In this document: positions 1,881-10,105 of the stretch, one piece after another
How the letters are laid out: every line of letters starts with the position of its first letter
Position numbering within the stretch: the first letter of the stretch is position 1
Source of the DNA: Candidatus Gastranaerophilales bacterium
GTDB taxonomy: Bacteria > Cyanobacteriota > Vampirovibrionia > Gastranaerophilales > Gastranaerophilaceae
Reading direction: 5' to 3'
Assembly (NCBI GenBank): GCA_944325545.1
Contig: CALVAM010000019.1
Span: 1 to 40,833 of the forward strand
Length of the DNA: 40,833 nucleotides
Notes under the pieces: generated by a model
Told to the model about the DNA's origin: nothing
What the model saw: the letters and a program-made list of their open reading frames with translations, nothing else
Databases searched by the model: none
Position numbers and translations under genes: made by a program

Positions 1881-3698
1881 TTAGTATCTTCCTACCTGAT
1901 TTCTGCCGTGTTCTTTTGCATAATACAAACCTTTATCCGCCCATTCAATTAAATCTTGAGGATTTTGAGCATTGTCTGGGAAAGTTGCAACCCCTAAACT
2001 TATTGTTATATTTGTTTTCTCTACAGGTGTAATATGAAAAGGAGTATCCGCAACAGCTTTACAAATTCTGTTTGCGTTGAATAAAGCATCTTCTGCAGAA
2101 GTATTTGGAAGAATTATTGTCATTTCTTCTCCACCATATCTGCAAACATAATCTGTTGCACGAGAATTATCTTTTAAAATTTTTGCAACTTGTCTTAAAA
2201 CAGCATCTCCAACTTGATGTCCGTATGTATCATTAAATTTCTTAAAGAAATCAATATCTACAATAATTAATGAAAAATTTTGATTATATCTTCTTGCAAT
2301 ATCAACTTGTTTCTTTAAAGTATCTTGAAAATATCTGTGATTATATAATTCTGTTAAACCATCCACCGTTGCTAACTTATATTGATATTCAAAATCTTTA
2401 GCTTTCATTAAATATTTTGCTAAAAATGATAAAGCAAAAGCTGCCATTATTGAAATAAATGGAATAACCACAGGTATCCATAGATTATAAAGTTCCATTA
2501 CATAATAAGAAATAAATAGATATGCAATCGCAAATAAAGATGTTGATAAGAATGCGAAAATTGTAGATGTTGAAAGCATAACAATACCTCCAACTATTAT
2601 AATTACAAACGCTGTTATTAAAATATTAGAAATAATATCAGTTTTTTTAATAAAATTGTTATCTAACATGTTATTAAAAAATGTAGCATGTACTTCAACA
2701 CCAGGGTACACTTCTTTTTGAACAGGAACACTTTTTGTATCATGAAGACTCATTGCAGTCGTTCCAATTATAATAATTTTATCTTTAAAATCAAAGTCGA
2801 CCTTATTTCCATTCTCCATTTCTTGTATTAATTTATACATAGGAACAACCGTATGCACTCCGCTTTGTCCATACCAATTTAAGATAGCGTCCCCCTCTTT
2901 AGATAAAGGAATCTTCATATCTGCGGCAATTAAATTAGAGTTCTTATCTATTTCAAAAGGTTCATTATTATTTTTACCTAAATAATCAGCCCCTGCTTTG
3001 AATGTCAAATACGGATAATATTTATCTTTATATAACATCAGAGGTGCAATATTTCTTATAATTCCATCTTCACTTCTAAATACATTAGTCATTCCTACAT
3101 TAACTTTACCTTTTAACAAACCATCCAAAATAAGACGACAATTGGAAAATTTATATTTTTTAGCAAAGTCTACTTTTGATTTATTATCAACTTTTACAGA
3201 TAACCTTTCCGGTAAATTTTCAGGAATACGCACATCAATCGCTTGATTGTCGAAATTCATAGCAGTATAGACATTGGGGTATTTATTCATAGTATCAATA
3301 AGATACTTATCTGAACTTTCAGAAGCTCTCATTGATTTTATAAACATTAAGTCAAAAATTATAGCTTGAGGCTCAGATTTTTCAAGATAATTAATAACAT
3401 CAGCATAAACATTTCTTGGGATAGGCCACTCTCCATACTTATCCCATAACGCTTCTAAACTTGCATCGTCAATTGCTAAAACAACTATATCTTTATTAGG
3501 AATAGGACGTTTATGTATAACTTGCAAAGTCTGACGATAATCAAATGTCCTGTTTTCTGCAACTTCAAAAAATGAAACTATTACATTCTTCAATGTATTA
3601 TTGTTTTGAAGTAATACAAAACCTATTAAAAAAGTTGCTAAAACAAGCAAAATATAAGTTCCATAGGTAAACCACTTTGTTTTTATTAAATTTTTCAA
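1881..3698 (-). CDS. Membrane CHASE2-GGDEF diguanylate cyclase
   Basis: A 605-residue sensor enzyme predicted to make cyclic di-GMP. An N-terminal membrane anchor (about residues 13-31) is followed by an extracytoplasmic CHASE2 sensory domain (about 40-345). A cluster of transmembrane helices (about 355-440) then leads to a C-terminal GGDEF domain. The catalytic signature is GGEEM within RYGGEEM, so a second-Glu variant expected to be active. An RxxD inhibitory site (RATD) sits five residues before it, suggesting product feedback. The start codon is TTG, preceded by a good GGGAGAG ribosome site. It is the first gene of a two-gene unit with trmFO. The ligand is unknown. Confidence 0.93.
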   Translation of the reverse strand: MKNLIKTKWFTYGTYILLVLATFLIGFVLLQNNNTLKNVIVSFFEVAENRTFDYRQTLQVIHKRPIPNKDIVVLAIDDASLEALWDKYGEWPIPRNVYADVINYLEKSEPQAIIFDLMFIKSMRASESSDKYLIDTMNKYPNVYTAMNFDNQAIDVRIPENLPERLSVKVDNKSKVDFAKKYKFSNCRLILDGLLKGKVNVGMTNVFRSEDGIIRNIAPLMLYKDKYYPYLTFKAGADYLGKNNNEPFEIDKNSNLIAADMKIPLSKEGDAILNWYGQSGVHTVVPMYKLIQEMENGNKVDFDFKDKIIIIGTTAMSLHDTKSVPVQKEVYPGVEVHATFFNNMLDNNFIKKTDIISNILITAFVIIIVGGIVMLSTSTIFAFLSTSLFAIAYLFISYYVMELYNLWIPVVIPFISIMAAFALSFLAKYLMKAKDFEYQYKLATVDGLTELYNHRYFQDTLKKQVDIARRYNQNFSLIIVDIDFFKKFNDTYGHQVGDAVLRQVAKILKDNSRATDYVCRYGGEEMTIILPNTSAEDALFNANRICKAVADTPFHITPVEKTNITISLGVATFPDNAQNPQDLIEWADKGLYYAKEHGRNQVGRY

Positions 3699-4025: not shown

Positions 4026-4364
4026 ATGTTTAACGGTTTTTATCCAAGATACGAATTAGAAGCAAGAATTCAACATACAAAGTTAGACAGTTGGGGAGAT
4101 ATACCATCTGCTCGAATGAATAGAGTAGAAGAACCTTCAACTGCGGATTTTAAAAGTGTAATGTCGGGTTTAGTTGAAAATATGAACACAACAATGAATG
4201 CACCTGATAATTTACTAAAAGACGCTATGATGGGTTCAGAAAATGTTGATATTCACGATGTAATGGTTGCAATGTCAAAAGCAGAAATTTCTGTTAACGT
4301 AGCAACAACAGCAGTAGGAAAAGTCATCCAAGCGTATGATAAAATTATGCAAATTCAGATTTAG
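4026..4364 (+). CDS. fliE: FliE-like flagellar basal-body/export adaptor
   Basis: 112 residues. The C-terminal half carries the FliE pattern: a DVMVAMSKAEISVN helix, then a helix ending in AYDKIMQIQI, like the family ending 'YQEIMRMQI'. In flagella FliE links the MS ring to the proximal rod and sits on the export gate. The N-terminal 45 residues are not obviously conserved. An AGAGGTGAT ribosome site precedes the ATG. It heads the export cluster, with fliF 52 bases downstream. The flgB and flgC genes that often precede fliE are absent, since the upstream neighbour is an oppositely oriented cyclase. Confidence 0.85.
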   Translation: MFNGFYPRYELEARIQHTKLDSWGDIPSARMNRVEEPSTADFKSVMSGLVENMNTTMNAPDNLLKDAMMGSENVDIHDVMVAMSKAEISVNVATTAVGKVIQAYDKIMQIQI

Positions 4365-4388
4365 ACTTCTCTTATTTAAATATATGTG

Positions 4389-4394
4389 TATAAT
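4389..4394 (+). promoter_or_regulatory. Candidate -10 box for fliF
   Basis: TATAAT lies 22 bases upstream of the fliF ATG in a TGTGTATAATAATAAG context. Similar TATAATAAG strings precede lysA and the radical SAM gene. No good -35 is evident, so fliF may have its own start point or be read through from fliE. Confidence 0.4.
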
Positions 4395-4416
4395 AATAAG
4401 TATATAGGGCAGGATT

Positions 4417-6084
4417 ATGGATTTTAAAAAGTTACTTGAAAATAAAGTTCTTTTAGCCTCAATAATAGGAGGTGTCATTCTACTGCTCGTAATTTTCATA
4501 CTGGTTGGTACAATAGCAGCCTCAAATAGCTCAAAAAACGAACAAATAGATGTAAGTAATGAACCGCTAAAAGAAGATGTTGACTTACTAACAACTGATA
4601 ATATGGGAAAAGCATTAGAAATCCAAGCTTTACTTGCTAAAAACAATATTGTAGCTTCTCGAGCAGTAGACGGTACAAAATCAGTTTTAAGACTAAAAAA
4701 AGGCGATTGTACTCCCGGCATGAAAAAATGTACCACAGAACAACGTGACAGAGCCATTATGGTAATCGTTGAGAGTGGTTTATATGACCAAAATGTTGGT
4801 TTGGAAGTTTTCGATAAAGGAGATTTTACTTCAACAAAAGAAGATAAAAGAATCAGATTAGTTCGTGCTATGAATGGAGAACTTGCAAGGTTAATCAGAA
4901 GAATTGACGGAATAGAAAATGCATCAGTATTTATTTCAATTCCTGAACAAACAATGTTTTCTTCAATGCAAAAACCTGTAACAGCAACCGTACAGCTCCA
5001 AGTTGATGTAGGTCAAACCTTAAGTATGAGCACAATTAAAGCAGTTTCAAATCTACTTTTAGGAAGTGTTTCAGGCTTAAAATCAGAAAATATTTCAATA
5101 ACCGATACAAACGGACACGTATACAACAGTTTAATTGATGCACAATCAGAAATGCTTGCAAGAATACAAGAAAACGACAAGTATATGCAAGAAAAAGTTC
5201 AAGCTCAATTAAACAGATTAATCGGTCAAGGAAAATACGTAGCAACCGTAAGTACATTCTTAAAACAAGCACCGGTAGAAAAGTATACAATTGAATATGA
5301 TCCAAACAAAAAAGCCTCTGTAACAGAGCAAACATTCTCAGAAGGTTTAGGCGATCAAACACAAGATGTTAATAAAAATACAAATGCGGTAAGTGTATAT
5401 CTTCCAAACGGTTTACCTGCAGGAAGTTCTGATTCTTCTCAAAACAGAAGTTATTCAAGAACAGCAAGAGAAACTCAGTATGGAGTAACAAAAGTTCAAA
5501 CAAATGAGTATATTTCACCTGGAGTATTAGAAGAAATATCAATTGCGGTAACTTTAGAAAAAGACGCTTTACCGGTAGAATTAACATTAGAAGAATTGAA
5601 GGATTTAGTAGCACACGCAGCCAGTCCGAAAGCAAACCCTGAAAATGTAACAATCGCTTTTGCAGATTCTTTAGACCCATTTATGGCAGGGGATAAAAAT
5701 GTTAAAAACTCAATAAAAGCAGAACAAGGAAATCCTTGGTGGTTAGCTGTTGTACTTTTAGTATTCGGTTTAATTTTCGGTCAAAAAGCTTTATCACAAA
5801 AAATTAATGCCGCAAAAGCAGCACAAGAAGAAGAATTAATGCGTTTAAGAGAAATGAATGAAGTTCAAGAAAAACAAATAAAAGATTTGAGTGCTAATGC
5901 AGCGGATTTAATCCAAAAACAATCCCAACTTCAACAAGGCTTATTGGAACAACAAAATAAAACAGTTGCAATCCCGACTTCCGGAGCAGAAATCAGAGAA
6001 GCCTTAAGAGAATTAAAACATGAATTTGATGGAGTTGACGAATCTGAAGCCGGAGAAAGAATAAGAAGCTGGATTGAAAGTTAG
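4417..6084 (+). CDS. fliF: FliF, flagellar-type MS-ring protein
   Basis: 555 residues, normal FliF size. It has transmembrane helix 1 (about 11-34), the YscJ/FliF ring-building domains (about 45-230, with GKALEIQALLAKNNI and the LARLIRRIDGIENASVFIS stretch) and the FliF C-domain (about 250-430). Transmembrane helix 2 follows (about 442-460), then a cytoplasmic charged coiled coil. The last residues, SEAGERIRSWIES, resemble the FliF tail that binds the FliG N-domain; non-flagellar SctJ proteins lack this tail, so this is the flagellar branch. It forms the inner-membrane ring housing the export gate. The ATG follows an AGGATT site. Confidence 0.93.
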   Translation: MDFKKLLENKVLLASIIGGVILLLVIFILVGTIAASNSSKNEQIDVSNEPLKEDVDLLTTDNMGKALEIQALLAKNNIVASRAVDGTKSVLRLKKGDCTPGMKKCTTEQRDRAIMVIVESGLYDQNVGLEVFDKGDFTSTKEDKRIRLVRAMNGELARLIRRIDGIENASVFISIPEQTMFSSMQKPVTATVQLQVDVGQTLSMSTIKAVSNLLLGSVSGLKSENISITDTNGHVYNSLIDAQSEMLARIQENDKYMQEKVQAQLNRLIGQGKYVATVSTFLKQAPVEKYTIEYDPNKKASVTEQTFSEGLGDQTQDVNKNTNAVSVYLPNGLPAGSSDSSQNRSYSRTARETQYGVTKVQTNEYISPGVLEEISIAVTLEKDALPVELTLEELKDLVAHAASPKANPENVTIAFADSLDPFMAGDKNVKNSIKAEQGNPWWLAVVLLVFGLIFGQKALSQKINAAKAAQEEELMRLREMNEVQEKQIKDLSANAADLIQKQSQLQQGLLEQQNKTVAIPTSGAEIREALRELKHEFDGVDESEAGERIRSWIES

Positions 6085-6171
6085 TCTTTAAAATCATTAA
6101 CTTATATGATGAGCTTTGAAAATAGTTTATATATAATATATTAGGGTTTATGGTATATAAAGGAAGATATA

Positions 6172-7212
6172 ATGCCTATTGAAGGATTTGATTATAAAGG
6201 TTTTGCAGCTTCTATGAGTGAACAGGCAAAAGAGCTTGTTCCAAAAGAATTAAAAGATTTTGAAAAAGAATATATAGTAAAAACTCTTGGAAATTTTACC
6301 CTTCTAGCCGGAGAAGCCTTATATAACGATGAACAATTAAATCTTAATGCCGATCAAGCAGTTTTTATTACTCAAGTTATAGCAGAATGGTCTTTCCATA
6401 AATCCATAGACTTAATTCATTCAGGAATACTTCCGCAATATTGGGATAGTATAATGCAAAAAATAGCATTTACTATTTTTGAGATTGCTAAACAAGCAGT
6501 AATTAGAAATATTCCTCAAGATCAATTACTTCAAGCTGTAGAACATCATGTTATAAAAGTTTATAATACAAGTATTGAAGAATTACAAAAAAAGGGCATC
6601 ATAGATGAAGAGATAAAAAACAGAGCAGAGAGCCAATCGAATATTGATGCAATGGCAAAACAAGCTCAAGCAGAGCAACAAAGACTAAAACAAGAAGCAG
6701 CAGAACAAGCTGAAAGAAATTTAGAAGCAGACGAAAAACGCAGAGAAGAGGAGAAAAAGAAAAGAAAACAGGAAAAAGCTCTTGCTGAAATGCCTAAAGG
6801 TATTAGTAACAAACAAATGAAATTAATGTCTTTGGCACTTGTTTTAAAAATTCTTTCTCAAGATAAAGTTACCACTATATTAAATAAATTTGATTCAAAT
6901 GATTCATTAGCGATTTCTAATTATATGAACATGGCAGATTTAGAATCACATCTTGATGGCGATTTAGTAACCAATTGCCTCAAAGAAATGAAAGATTATC
7001 TGCCAATCAAACGAAAATTAACAAAAGAAAATATTTTAGGTGATCTGTTAAGAATATACAAAGTAACACCGAGAGAAAAGATAGAAAAAATCATAAAAAA
7101 TGAAAGACCTTTAGTAAAAAGATTTGTATCACAAGCATACGACGGAGAATATTCCGAGCTTCCGCTAAGGGTTGCAGGAATTGTTGTACAATATATCGAA
7201 GAAAGTATATAA
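6172..7212 (+). CDS. FliG-position adaptor: FliG-N-like domain, no visible torque domain
   Basis: 346 residues, in the usual fliG slot between fliF and fliH. Residues 1-145 are a helical domain I do not recognise, and 150-205 are a highly charged Gln/Glu/Lys/Arg coiled coil. Residues about 211-280 have the hydrophobic pattern of a FliG N-terminal (FliF-binding) domain: KLMSLALVLKILSQDKVTTI, then a second helical repeat. Residues 281-346 are a short helical tail. I see no EHPQ motif and no FliG C-domain charged torque helix. It may tether FliF to FliH and the export machinery without driving rotation, or it may be a very divergent FliG. It begins MPIEGF, like the protein at 14924-16459. Ribosome site AAGGAAG. 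Confidence 0.6.
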   Translation: MPIEGFDYKGFAASMSEQAKELVPKELKDFEKEYIVKTLGNFTLLAGEALYNDEQLNLNADQAVFITQVIAEWSFHKSIDLIHSGILPQYWDSIMQKIAFTIFEIAKQAVIRNIPQDQLLQAVEHHVIKVYNTSIEELQKKGIIDEEIKNRAESQSNIDAMAKQAQAEQQRLKQEAAEQAERNLEADEKRREEEKKKRKQEKALAEMPKGISNKQMKLMSLALVLKILSQDKVTTILNKFDSNDSLAISNYMNMADLESHLDGDLVTNCLKEMKDYLPIKRKLTKENILGDLLRIYKVTPREKIEKIIKNERPLVKRFVSQAYDGEYSELPLRVAGIVVQYIEESI

Positions 7213-7220
7213 TATAAAAT

Positions 7221-7988
7221 ATGATTATAAAAAAGAATAGTCAAAAAAAGCGGGAGGAAAAATTAGAAAAAAAAATTCAGGAAGTAATACCTGAATCTGT
7301 TTCTGTTGAAAATAATATTTCTCAAGAAGAGATTATAGAAACTCCTCAAGAAACTATTCCGGAAGTAAAAGAAGCTGAAATTGATTTATTTGATATAGAA
7401 AACATCGATTTTTCACAACGACAAGAACGTAGAAGAGGTTCCAGACGTCGTGGTTACAGAAGAATAGATGACAGAAACCTAGTATCAAGAGCTCAAGAAG
7501 AAGCAGAAAACATAAAAAAATCAGCTTTTGACGAAGGATATAGAAAAGGTCTGGAACAAGCTTCAGAGGATATAGAACAATTTAAAAAAGAATTTTCTGT
7601 ATTTATGAATGCTCCAAAAAACGTTTATGAATACATCGCACCTGATATTTTAGAAATCAGTGTAGAAATCGCAAAAAAAATCATTAAAAAAGAAGTAGAA
7701 AGCGATCCACAAGTAATTATAAACGTAATCGTTGATGTATTAAAAACAATTTCCAAAAATGAACCTAAAATAAATATTAGAGTAAAACCACAAGCAGTCC
7801 AATTTATAAAAGATACAATACCAAATATAACATATCAATACGGAATTGATTCCAAAATAAACATAATAGCAGATCCATCAATAGAAGAAGGCGGATGTAT
7901 TTTTCAAACAAATAACGGTATAGTTGATGCTTCAATTGATACTCAATTAGAAATAATAAGAAAAGCTTTAGAAATAGGAGTGAATTAG
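7221..7988 (+). CDS. fliH: FliH/SctL-like stator of the export ATPase
   Basis: 255 residues. The N-terminal 80 are low-complexity and acidic, then an Arg-rich patch (RRRGSRRRGYRR, about 73-84). A helix with AFDEGYRKGLEQ (about 110-120) follows, then the V-type ATPase E-subunit-like FliH domain to the end, including EGGCIFQTNNGIVDASIDTQ, the typical C-terminal FliH phrase. In the family it holds the ATPase FliI at the gate; no fliI is in this window. It starts 8 bases after the FliG-like gene, with a weak ribosome site that implies translational coupling. The Arg-rich patch before the coiled coil is unusual. Confidence 0.85.
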   Translation: MIIKKNSQKKREEKLEKKIQEVIPESVSVENNISQEEIIETPQETIPEVKEAEIDLFDIENIDFSQRQERRRGSRRRGYRRIDDRNLVSRAQEEAENIKKSAFDEGYRKGLEQASEDIEQFKKEFSVFMNAPKNVYEYIAPDILEISVEIAKKIIKKEVESDPQVIINVIVDVLKTISKNEPKINIRVKPQAVQFIKDTIPNITYQYGIDSKINIIADPSIEEGGCIFQTNNGIVDASIDTQLEIIRKALEIGVN

Positions 7989-8014
7989 TAAAATTCTCAC
8001 AATAAAGGAAATAA

Positions 8015-10105
8015 ATGGCAGCAGAAGGACAACAAAATAAACCTATAAGTGAAATATTTTTAGCATTATTCGTAATGACCTTGATTTTAATCCTCATTAT
8101 CGAGATGCCAAATTGGGTTATCAATTTTTCTATAAGCTTAAATATTACACTAGGTATTGTTCTATTAATGATATCTTTATATGTCCAAAAGCCTTTAGAA
8201 TTAGCAGCGTTCCCCTCAATTATACTGCTGGGGACAATGTTTCGTTTGGTACTTTCAATAGCTTCAACACGTCTTATTTTGGCAAAAGGGGACGCAGGAG
8301 AAGTAATCCACGCATTCGGAACATTCGTAACAGGCGGAAATATGATTGTAGGCGGTGTAATTTTCTTAATTATCACAGTCGTACAATTTATGGTAATTAC
8401 CAAGGGTGCTGAACGTATTGCCGAAGTTGCCGCACGTTTCGCATTAGATGCCATGCCAGGTAAGCAAATGACTATTGATGCCGATTTTAACGCAGGTTTA
8501 ATTTCACCTGAAGAAGCTGTTAAACGTCGTGAAGACCTTCAAAGAGAATCAAGTTTATTTGGTTCAATGGATGGTTCTATGAAATTCGTAAAAGGTGATA
8601 CTATGGCTGGTATCATCATTGTAATTATTAACATTGTCGGAGGTTTAGCCGTTGGGTGTTTAATGAATCAAATGCCAATAGCTGACGCCGTTAGTAAATA
8701 TACAGTTTTAACAATTGGTGACGGTTTAGCCTCTCAGCTTCCATCACTTTTAATGTCAATTGCAGCAGGTATCGTCATGACCCGTGCTTCTGCCGGGAAT
8801 AATTCATTAGGCGGAGATTTGACTTCACAAATTTTATCTAAACCTTATTCATTATTTTTTGCGGCACTATTCTTGGGATTAATTACAATAACTTGTCCGA
8901 TAACCGGCTTACCATTCTTACCGTTTTTAATGTTTACAATTATCCTTGCAGTTGCAGGATTTTCAGTACTCGTTAATGCAGATGTTCAATCTCAATTAGG
9001 ACAATTAGAAAGCGTTCGCCAAAATATGCAAGATTTAGTTAACCCTAATAAAATGTACGAAAGACTTGGGGTTGATGTTTTAAGTTTACAAGTCGGAGCT
9101 GGCTTACTTGTTATTGCGGATCCTGATCAAGAAGGTCAATTACTTGCTAAAATCGCAGCACTTCGTCAAAGAGTTACCGATGAATTGGGATACATTTTAC
9201 CTAATATTCGTATTATGGACTCATCTGCTTTAGAAGCTAATGAATACGTTATTTCTATCCGTAACAATGTCGTAGCTTCAGGCTTTGTATACCCTGGAAA
9301 ATACATGGTAATTGCAGATCAATGGGATTCAGTAAAAAAATCTATTCCGGAAGATGCAATTGTCGGAGTTGATCCTACTTACCAAACCCAAGCATATTGG
9401 ATTTCTCAAGATGACGCTAGATCTGCTAAAAGTGTTACTGCAGTTGATGCTACAGATGTTCTTGTTACACACCTTCAAGAATGTGTACGTAAACACGTTG
9501 ATGAAGTTATGACTAAAACTGATGTACTTAAACTTATGGAACTTGTTCGCTCTCAAGACCCAACACTTGTTAATGACCTTGTTCCGGCAATTATTTCTAC
9601 TTCTGATTTAAGAAAAATATTTGTTAACCTAATCAGAGAAAAAGTTTCTATCAAAGATATTATATTCGTATTTGAAAGACTTTGCGATTATGCAAGATTT
9701 TCTAAAGAACCTGATATTTTATCAGAACGTTTGAGAGCTGCATTAGGACGCCAAATTTGTTTATCTAATGTTGATAGAGATAGGGTTTTATACGCTCTTA
9801 CTCTTTCTCCAGAATGGGAAAAAACTCTTGATGATAGTTGTCAAAGAACAGAACTTGGAACTATGTTCCTTCTTAATCCTATGCAAGTTCAAGATTTAAT
9901 AGAATCTACTGCAATGACACTTATGAGAGCCCACCAATCTATCGGACAACAACCTGTTATTCTATGTTCTCCAAGAATAAGACTTCCTTTATATCAATTA
10001 CTCGAAAGACATATTCCTACAATTGTTGTTATTTCATACTCCGAACTTATTACCGATATTAAGGTTGAAGCTGTTGACACTATTGGCGAAAATTCTGGAT
10101 ATTAA
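8015..10105 (+). CDS. flhA: FlhA, export-gate membrane protein
   Basis: 696 residues, standard for FlhA/SctV. About eight transmembrane helices fill the first 330 residues. The FHIPEP signature region is recognisable as FPSIILLGTMFRLVLSIAST followed by RLIL. The cytoplasmic ring-forming domain (about 360-696) contains ALEANEYVISI, DPTYQTQAYWIS and VLVTHLQECVRKHVDEV. It forms the nonameric cytosolic ring that receives substrates and couples proton flow to export. Ribosome site AAAGGAA. It follows fliH directly; in many flagellar operons fliI and others would intervene. Flagellar versus non-flagellar use cannot be decided from this protein alone. Confidence 0.94.
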   Translation: MAAEGQQNKPISEIFLALFVMTLILILIIEMPNWVINFSISLNITLGIVLLMISLYVQKPLELAAFPSIILLGTMFRLVLSIASTRLILAKGDAGEVIHAFGTFVTGGNMIVGGVIFLIITVVQFMVITKGAERIAEVAARFALDAMPGKQMTIDADFNAGLISPEEAVKRREDLQRESSLFGSMDGSMKFVKGDTMAGIIIVIINIVGGLAVGCLMNQMPIADAVSKYTVLTIGDGLASQLPSLLMSIAAGIVMTRASAGNNSLGGDLTSQILSKPYSLFFAALFLGLITITCPITGLPFLPFLMFTIILAVAGFSVLVNADVQSQLGQLESVRQNMQDLVNPNKMYERLGVDVLSLQVGAGLLVIADPDQEGQLLAKIAALRQRVTDELGYILPNIRIMDSSALEANEYVISIRNNVVASGFVYPGKYMVIADQWDSVKKSIPEDAIVGVDPTYQTQAYWISQDDARSAKSVTAVDATDVLVTHLQECVRKHVDEVMTKTDVLKLMELVRSQDPTLVNDLVPAIISTSDLRKIFVNLIREKVSIKDIIFVFERLCDYARFSKEPDILSERLRAALGRQICLSNVDRDRVLYALTLSPEWEKTLDDSCQRTELGTMFLLNPMQVQDLIESTAMTLMRAHQSIGQQPVILCSPRIRLPLYQLLERHIPTIVVISYSELITDIKVEAVDTIGENSGY

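Follow-up and report, generated by a model that had tools for sequence, protein, structure and literature searches.

The stretch of DNA considered here, called the window throughout, comprises the 40,833 nucleotides of contig CALVAM010000019.1 (assembly GCA_944325545.1, Candidatus Gastranaerophilales bacterium), which is contig C19 of a draft genome of 1.82 Mb that is 99.6% complete. Five co-directional genes lie at 4026-10105 of the window: fliE, fliF, a gene for a protein in the FliG slot that we call X, fliH and flhA. Pfam confirms four of them, and X has no significant Pfam family match. The genomes compared were metagenome-assembled drafts, and relatives were read as stretches around the matches. 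Across many genera these stretches repeat the order fliE-fliF-X-fliH-flhA, with fliI often coming next; in a few of them, no fliE was called next to fliF. Thus, the cluster is real and chance is excluded. Its features are as follows.

4026..4364, + strand: fliE2, FliE-type adaptor (PF02049, 1e-17; TIGR00205, 56.7 bits, cut-off 30), in the equivalent position in relatives
4417..6084, + strand: fliF2, MS-ring protein (YscJ_FliF PF01514, 2e-32; YscJ_FliF_C PF08345, 5e-13; TIGR00206, 110.9 bits, cut-off 129.75)
6034..6081, + strand: C-terminal helix of FliF2, putative X docking site (..EAGERIRSWIES), with a (K/R)(S/N)WIE-type tail in about 20 relatives
6172..7212, + strand: X, FliG-slot protein of 346 residues, found in 114/117 family genomes (model pLDDT 86)
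6172..6633, + strand: N-domain of X, residues 1-154, a helical bundle in the AlphaFold2 model; the module recurs in relatives
6643..6777, + strand: long helix or coiled coil of X, residues 158-202 (AlphaFold2 model)
6808..7005, + strand: lobe 1 of X, residues 213-278, FliG_N-like (structure comparison and hhalign)
7006..7209, + strand: lobe 2 of X, residues 279-346, probably FliG_M-like (weak; hhalign and the invariant ER at 311-312)
7221..7988, + strand: fliH2, FliH/SctL stator (PF02108, 2e-24)
8015..10105, + strand: flhA2, export gate (FHIPEP PF00771, 1e-216; TIGR01398, 697 bits, cut-off 772; SctV, 586 bits, cut-off 692)

The fliF2 gene differs from that of the canonical FliF of the same genome (contig C6), and the tail of its product, ..DESEAGERIRSWIES, resembles a FliG-binding tail in form and is kept in about 20 relatives, suggesting that it may bind a FliG-like partner. 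FlhA2 shares 37% identity with FlhA1 of the same genome and belongs to a separate lineage. Of the remainder of the window, the part that was scanned is housekeeping for the most part. An earlier note, made from these letters alone, had described the five genes as contiguous, FliF as keeping a FliG-binding-like tail, and rod, hook and motor genes as absent from the window. Open reading frames and Pfam matches bear out the contiguity, the sequences of the relatives agree on the form of the tail, and the window indeed contains no rod, hook or motor genes, which the genome has elsewhere.

The same genome encodes a canonical flagellum, with FliF-FliG-FliH-FliI on C6, FliP/Q/R-FlhB-FlhA on C24, FliM and FliN on C12, and nine flagellin-domain matches. 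In addition, a second set of components was found, with a two-SpoA protein, FliO, FliP, FliQ and FliR on C5, FlhB on C9, FliI on C14, and FlgF, FlgG, FlgB and FlgC on C1. The copy counts are three for FHIPEP, two each for FliF, FliP, FlhB and the type III secretion system (T3SS) ATPase, and one for FliG. As judged from sequence, the window genes are part of a second, paralogous system, the rest of which lies on the four other contigs, and this system has its own FliF2, FliE2, FliH2, FliI2, FlhA2, FlhB2, FliO/P/Q/R2, a single SpoA-type ring protein and FlgF/G/B/C2.

Protein X occupies the position of FliG in this system. Its AlphaFold2 model is confident, with a helical N-domain (1-154), a long helix (158-202) and a helical C-part (213-346). 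When the C-part was modelled alone, the 12 best structure matches (VIA) were all FliG chains, two FliF-FliG complexes included; lobe 1 aligned with 5wuj_B (Z 6.3, root-mean-square deviation 4.6, 68 residues, 21% identity) and 5tdy_B (Z 6.1, deviation 3.8, 63 residues), both from such complexes, and the first non-FliG row had a Z of 4.7. Profile comparison with hhalign gave a score of 34.7 for the C-part against FliG (P 1.7e-4), and ten other families of the same loci, run as controls against the C-part, scored at most 18.9 (P at least 0.067). Lobe 1 preferred FliG_N (P 6.5e-4; controls at least 0.02), and lobe 2 preferred FliG_M (P 2.4e-3) in an alignment that spans the ENPQ site. Residues E311 and R312 are invariant in 34 X sequences, and this ER(P) faces the EHPQ/ENPQ site of FliG; the EHPQ motif of FliG_M is itself not in X. 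The best Pfam E-value for FliG_N among the 34 members was 0.027, several X proteins gave weak FliG_M, FliG_N or MgtE_N matches at lobe 1, and a PDB sequence search with the X profile returned one unrelated match only (E 0.42). There is no PF01706 match, and X ends after lobe 2; FliG_C is absent. Model and profiles together suggest that the C-part is probably a FliG_N-like lobe plus a second lobe collinear with FliG_M. The architecture proposed in the earlier note, with a novel N-domain, a long coiled coil, a FliG_N-like part, no EHPQ motif and no C-terminal torque domain, is largely upheld, including by the structure predicted from 6172-7212, which has no FliG_C fold; the note had allowed for a FliG_N-like domain only, and a FliG_M-like lobe is now probable.

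The N-domain of X is a mobile module. In one relative that has X as well (L062:7893-9977; genome G098, contig C20), an X N-domain is joined through membrane helices to the cytoplasmic domain of FlhA in a single protein of 694 residues, and this natural fusion ties X to the export gate. Stand-alone paralogs of the N-domain, of about 230-330 residues, were observed at L045:5621-6607 and L063:9860-10585 and in L068, L072 and L076, several with membrane helices predicted by eye, and a tandem duplicate of X, mostly N-domain, lies between fliF2 and X in genome G376 (L171:5843-6406). As a known fold, the N-domain was not assigned, the best VIA rows (6tgz, Z 10.6; a designed filament, 9.7; V-ATPase subunit A) being generic helical matches.

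To place the system within the family, 117 genomes from 41 genera were sampled. X was found in 114 of them and FliG_C in 47, and 70, nearly all of which carry X, had no FliG_C match (FliG-positive and FliG-negative genomes, respectively). The T3SS ATPase is present in two copies in 45/47 FliG-positive genomes and in exactly one copy in 66/70 FliG-negative genomes, and the copy number of FlhB varies likewise, apart from some exceptions. In genomes that have it alone, the second system is without the FliG torque domain, the FliM/FliN pair and flagellin, as seen in 13 FliG-negative genomes tested for the latter two: these have a single SpoA gene (about 390-430 residues) with no separate FliM and FliN, and Flagellin_N was found in 0/13 of them and in 5/5 FliG-positive family genomes tested. 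Rod genes are kept in 13/13. Two SpoA domains were detected in the SpoA protein of several members, and the order SpoA2-FliO-P-Q-R2 is conserved in FliG-positive and FliG-negative genomes alike. Two nearly complete family genomes, G063 and G409, gave no X match.

An order-level relative (L171, genome G376) carries flgF-flgG-flgB-flgC-SLT transglycosylase-fliE-fliF-X-fliH-flhA-fliI as a single operon, and another (L172) has the same order minus fliI; this operon is the ancestral arrangement. In addition to the SLT transglycosylase, some relatives have FliJ-like, FliK-like ruler and FlgE-like proteins. These three form a cluster in four FliG-negative genomes (G006, G010, G013 and G022), in which the FliJ-like protein reaches 40 bits with TIGR02473 (below the cut-off of 50), the FliK-like protein matches Flg_hook at 6.6e-6, and a FlgE/F/G-like protein of 278 residues reaches 122.8 bits with TIGR03506, over the cut-off. 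Across the phylum, the X profile matched 176 of 386 genomes, comprising nearly the whole family, 3/3 sampled order-level genomes and, as weak or diverged matches, a few class-level genomes, with no match among the listed genomes of photosynthetic-cyanobacterial size. In the genome collection X matches 422 places; among the best 80 of these, most of the closest named are Candidatus Gastranaerophilales of animal gut and rumen origin. Three such X loci (L108, L121 and L128) stand in public records titled 'uncultured Acinetobacter sp.', titles that look mislabelled.

These distributions bear on what the earlier note had looked for. Export genes without motor and filament genes in the whole genome would, according to the note, have supported its idea; this is not the case here, as canonical FliG, FliM/FliN and flagellins were found, but that state is seen in about 60% of the family, in which the second system is alone. 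It had also named a second, canonical fliG as evidence against its idea, and such a gene is present, but the core of the idea survives, the window genes being a separate paralogous set. The idea of a flagellum-derived apparatus is retained in so far as the second system has neither motor nor filament and X, which has no torque domain, takes the place of FliG, with the amendment that this genome also has a canonical flagellum.

Several observations were made around the second-system loci. Between fliQ2 and fliR2 (L012:9216-9620), a small secreted or periplasmic protein is encoded, and PF13629, a secretin-type N domain, is matched by its relatives (4/6 members, best 2.3e-5); this protein is a lead toward an outer-membrane exit. 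An ORF6N-domain gene lies between fliP2 and fliQ2 on C5 of the window genome (L012:8190-8708) and is not there in the relatives read. FliQ2 (L012:8680-9201; relatives L208-L217) has 157-206 residues, with a conserved C-terminal extension, compared with 89 for E. coli FliQ. A gene for a sigma-70 region-4 protein, a candidate regulator of the second system, adjoins flhB2 in six genomes (L064:9594-10292 and relatives). Contig C15 of the window genome encodes a soluble paralog of the FlhA cytoplasmic domain (L006:7246-8727; FHIPEP positions 321-655) with an unrelated N-part and without the transmembrane half, near an OmpH-like gene. In the window itself, a CHASE2-GGDEF-like protein, recognised by eye, is encoded at 1881-3698, divergent from the cluster.

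Taken together, it is likely that the second system is a type III export machine, with its inner base encoded in the window, rather than a motility flagellum: a flagellum-derived, rod-bearing and motorless secretion apparatus, where motorless is judged by FliG_C, the FliM/FliN pair and flagellin. The stator protein MotA belongs to a family that also includes ExbB/TolQ. Most likely, the machine is neither a flagellum nor an injectisome as usually defined. In the mechanism that we propose, X would be a FliG/SctK-like platform adaptor without the torque domain: its FliG_N-like lobe 1 would dock on the FliF2 tail, its FliG_M-like lobe 2 would join FliF2 to the SpoA2 ring, and its long helix would bring the N-domain close to the ATPase and to the cytoplasmic ring of FlhA. 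The FlgB/C/F/G-like and FlgE-like subunits would be exported in an order timed by the FliK-like protein and FlhB2, and the wall would be opened by the SLT enzyme in genomes that have it. A short, non-rotating conduit would result, with proteins secreted at the cell surface. The likeliest use is continued secretion, with a purely structural or adhesive appendage as the main rival.

According to this rival, the genes build a short, fixed appendage of rod and hook that serves in adhesion or in anchoring the envelope, and export is used only to assemble it. The recognisable exported substrates are indeed confined to rod proteins, FlgE-like proteins and the FliK-like ruler, and flagellar hook-basal bodies use the same assembly route. 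However, conservation of the full ATPase, gate and platform is at least equally expected of ongoing secretion, and the FlgE-like protein is without a recognised adhesin domain. We consider such an appendage unlikely, and it is the alternative that survives best.

A classical injectisome (non-flagellar T3SS) with a flagellar look is far less probable. The second system shares with injectisomes a motorless export, a single SpoA ring protein like SctQ (with two SpoA domains in several members) and a putative adaptor between MS-ring and SpoA-ring in the SctK position, and the PF13629 periplasmic protein between FliQ2 and FliR2 would also fit. It differs in keeping the flagellar hallmarks FliE, FlgB, FlgC, FlgF/G, FliO and the FliF C-domain. 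With curated NCBIfam models (bits/cut-off), the proteins fall below the flagellar cut-offs (FlhA 697/772, FlhB 335/349, FliI 566/630, FliP 214.5/217.5, FliF 110.9/129.75) and also below the Sct cut-offs (SctV 586/692, SctU 311/358, SctN 544/605, SctR 190/209); FlgB (66/59), FlgC (102.3/102.1) and FliE (56.7/30) are over the flagellar ones. For FlhA, FlhB, FliP, FliR, FliI and FliF, the flagellar-model scores exceed the Sct-model scores. No secretin was recognised beside the loci read, no genome-wide secretin search having been made, and no needle or translocon genes were recognised next to these loci. Abby and Rocha (2012; PMC3459982) take FlgB, FlgC and FliE as marks of flagella and a secretin as the mark of injectisomes; here, all three are present and no secretin was seen near the loci read.

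The second system also stands apart from the flagellum. The two share FliE, FliF with its C-domain, FliH, FliI, FlhA, FlhB, FliO/P/Q/R, FlgB/C/F/G, a FliG-like protein between FliF and FliH and, in some relatives, FliJ-, FliK- and FlgE-like proteins. They differ in that the second system is without FliG_C and, where alone, without the FliM and FliN pair and flagellin, in the unrelated N-domain of X, and in a gate that forms its own deep lineage. In a concatenated FlhA/FlhB/FliP/FliR tree with few references, the second system takes its own deep branch, and the canonical Gastranaerophilales flagellum groups with other flagella with 99% support; a sister relation between the second system and the flagellum of the same genomes was rejected (approximately unbiased [AU] test, p 0.011). 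The L062 FHIPEP protein was left out of tree building as a fusion of X N-domain and FlhA_C rather than FlhA1. The deep placement is provisional.

The Myxococcales 'Myxo' T3SS is without FlgB/C/D/E/K and FliE/G (PMC3459982). It resembles the second system in being motorless, vertically inherited, once mistaken for a relic and secretin-less, the last as far as seen here; as the second system keeps FlgB/C/F/G, FliE and a FliG-like adaptor, it represents a different combination. The chances appear evenly balanced that the system constitutes a third type III class, rod-bearing and motorless with a FliG-derived adaptor, inherited in the Gastranaerophilales and diverged in other Vampirovibrionia. In the literature searched, no separate type III system has been described in Vampirovibrionia or Gastranaerophilales.

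Published work has instead read incomplete sets of this kind as relics. Di Rienzi et al. (2013; PMC3787301) and Soo et al. (2014; PMC4040986) reported incomplete sets and inferred ongoing reduction or loss; the former built flagellar trees from genes common to four Melainabacteria and attributed the incomplete set of MEL.A1 to genome reduction. Their list for ACD20 gives flgG, flgG, flgC, fliF, fliH, flhA and fliI on one contig, which is the order of the second system (compared by gene order, not by sequence). A degenerating relic of an ordinary flagellum is, however, highly improbable: a separate paralogous set coexists with a complete flagellum in FliG-positive genomes, and it is found in nearly all genomes of 41 genera. 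Moreover, dN/dS is about 0.01-0.15 for fliF2, X, fliH2, flhA2 and the rod genes, also within FliG-negative genera; at the sequence level, the second-system genes are under strong purifying selection, and thus not a decaying relic. Buchnera has the reduced ordinary flagellum of one symbiont. Its hook-basal bodies (PMC8109811) resemble the second system in keeping flagellar base and export genes with no filament; the second system differs in being a separate paralogous set, equipped with an adaptor of its own (X) and accompanied by a complete flagellum. Least probable of all are auxiliary paralogous subunits of the same motility flagellum, which the presence of both sets in FliG-positive genomes and a possible exchange of subunits would allow, but about 60% of genomes keep the second set in the absence of FliG and, where tested, of FliM/FliN and flagellin as well.

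Several points weigh against a motorless secretion apparatus as the best explanation. No substrate, tip or outer-membrane pore was identified, secretion being inferred from genes, and the FliJ-, FliK- and FlgE-like genes were seen in FliG-negative genomes only, with none located in the window genome. In FliG-positive genomes, there may be crosstalk between the second system and the real flagellum. The FliG structure matches of X have modest Z values (5-6), and Foldseek gave no E-value below 0.001 for either the full X model or its C-domain. Finally, references in the trees were few, and a tree of FlhA by itself did not reject the sister relation (AU, p 0.094).

The origin of protein-injecting machines from the flagellum is an old question, and the known Myxococcales intermediate has already lost the rod and FliE. 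The second system keeps the rod and FliE, with a FliK-like ruler in some genomes, and has dropped torque and filament, so that these steps can be studied in living relatives. If our reading is true, it would be a living intermediate between flagellum and injectisome, which retains rod and ruler but has lost motor and filament, or else a second exaptation that arose independently. For the Gastranaerophilales, our analyses indicate a conserved second export machine besides or instead of the normal flagellum, and the 'incomplete flagella' of published non-motile gut members look like this intact, selected machine. Common bacteria of the animal and human gut would thus carry a conserved and testable surface or secretion system.

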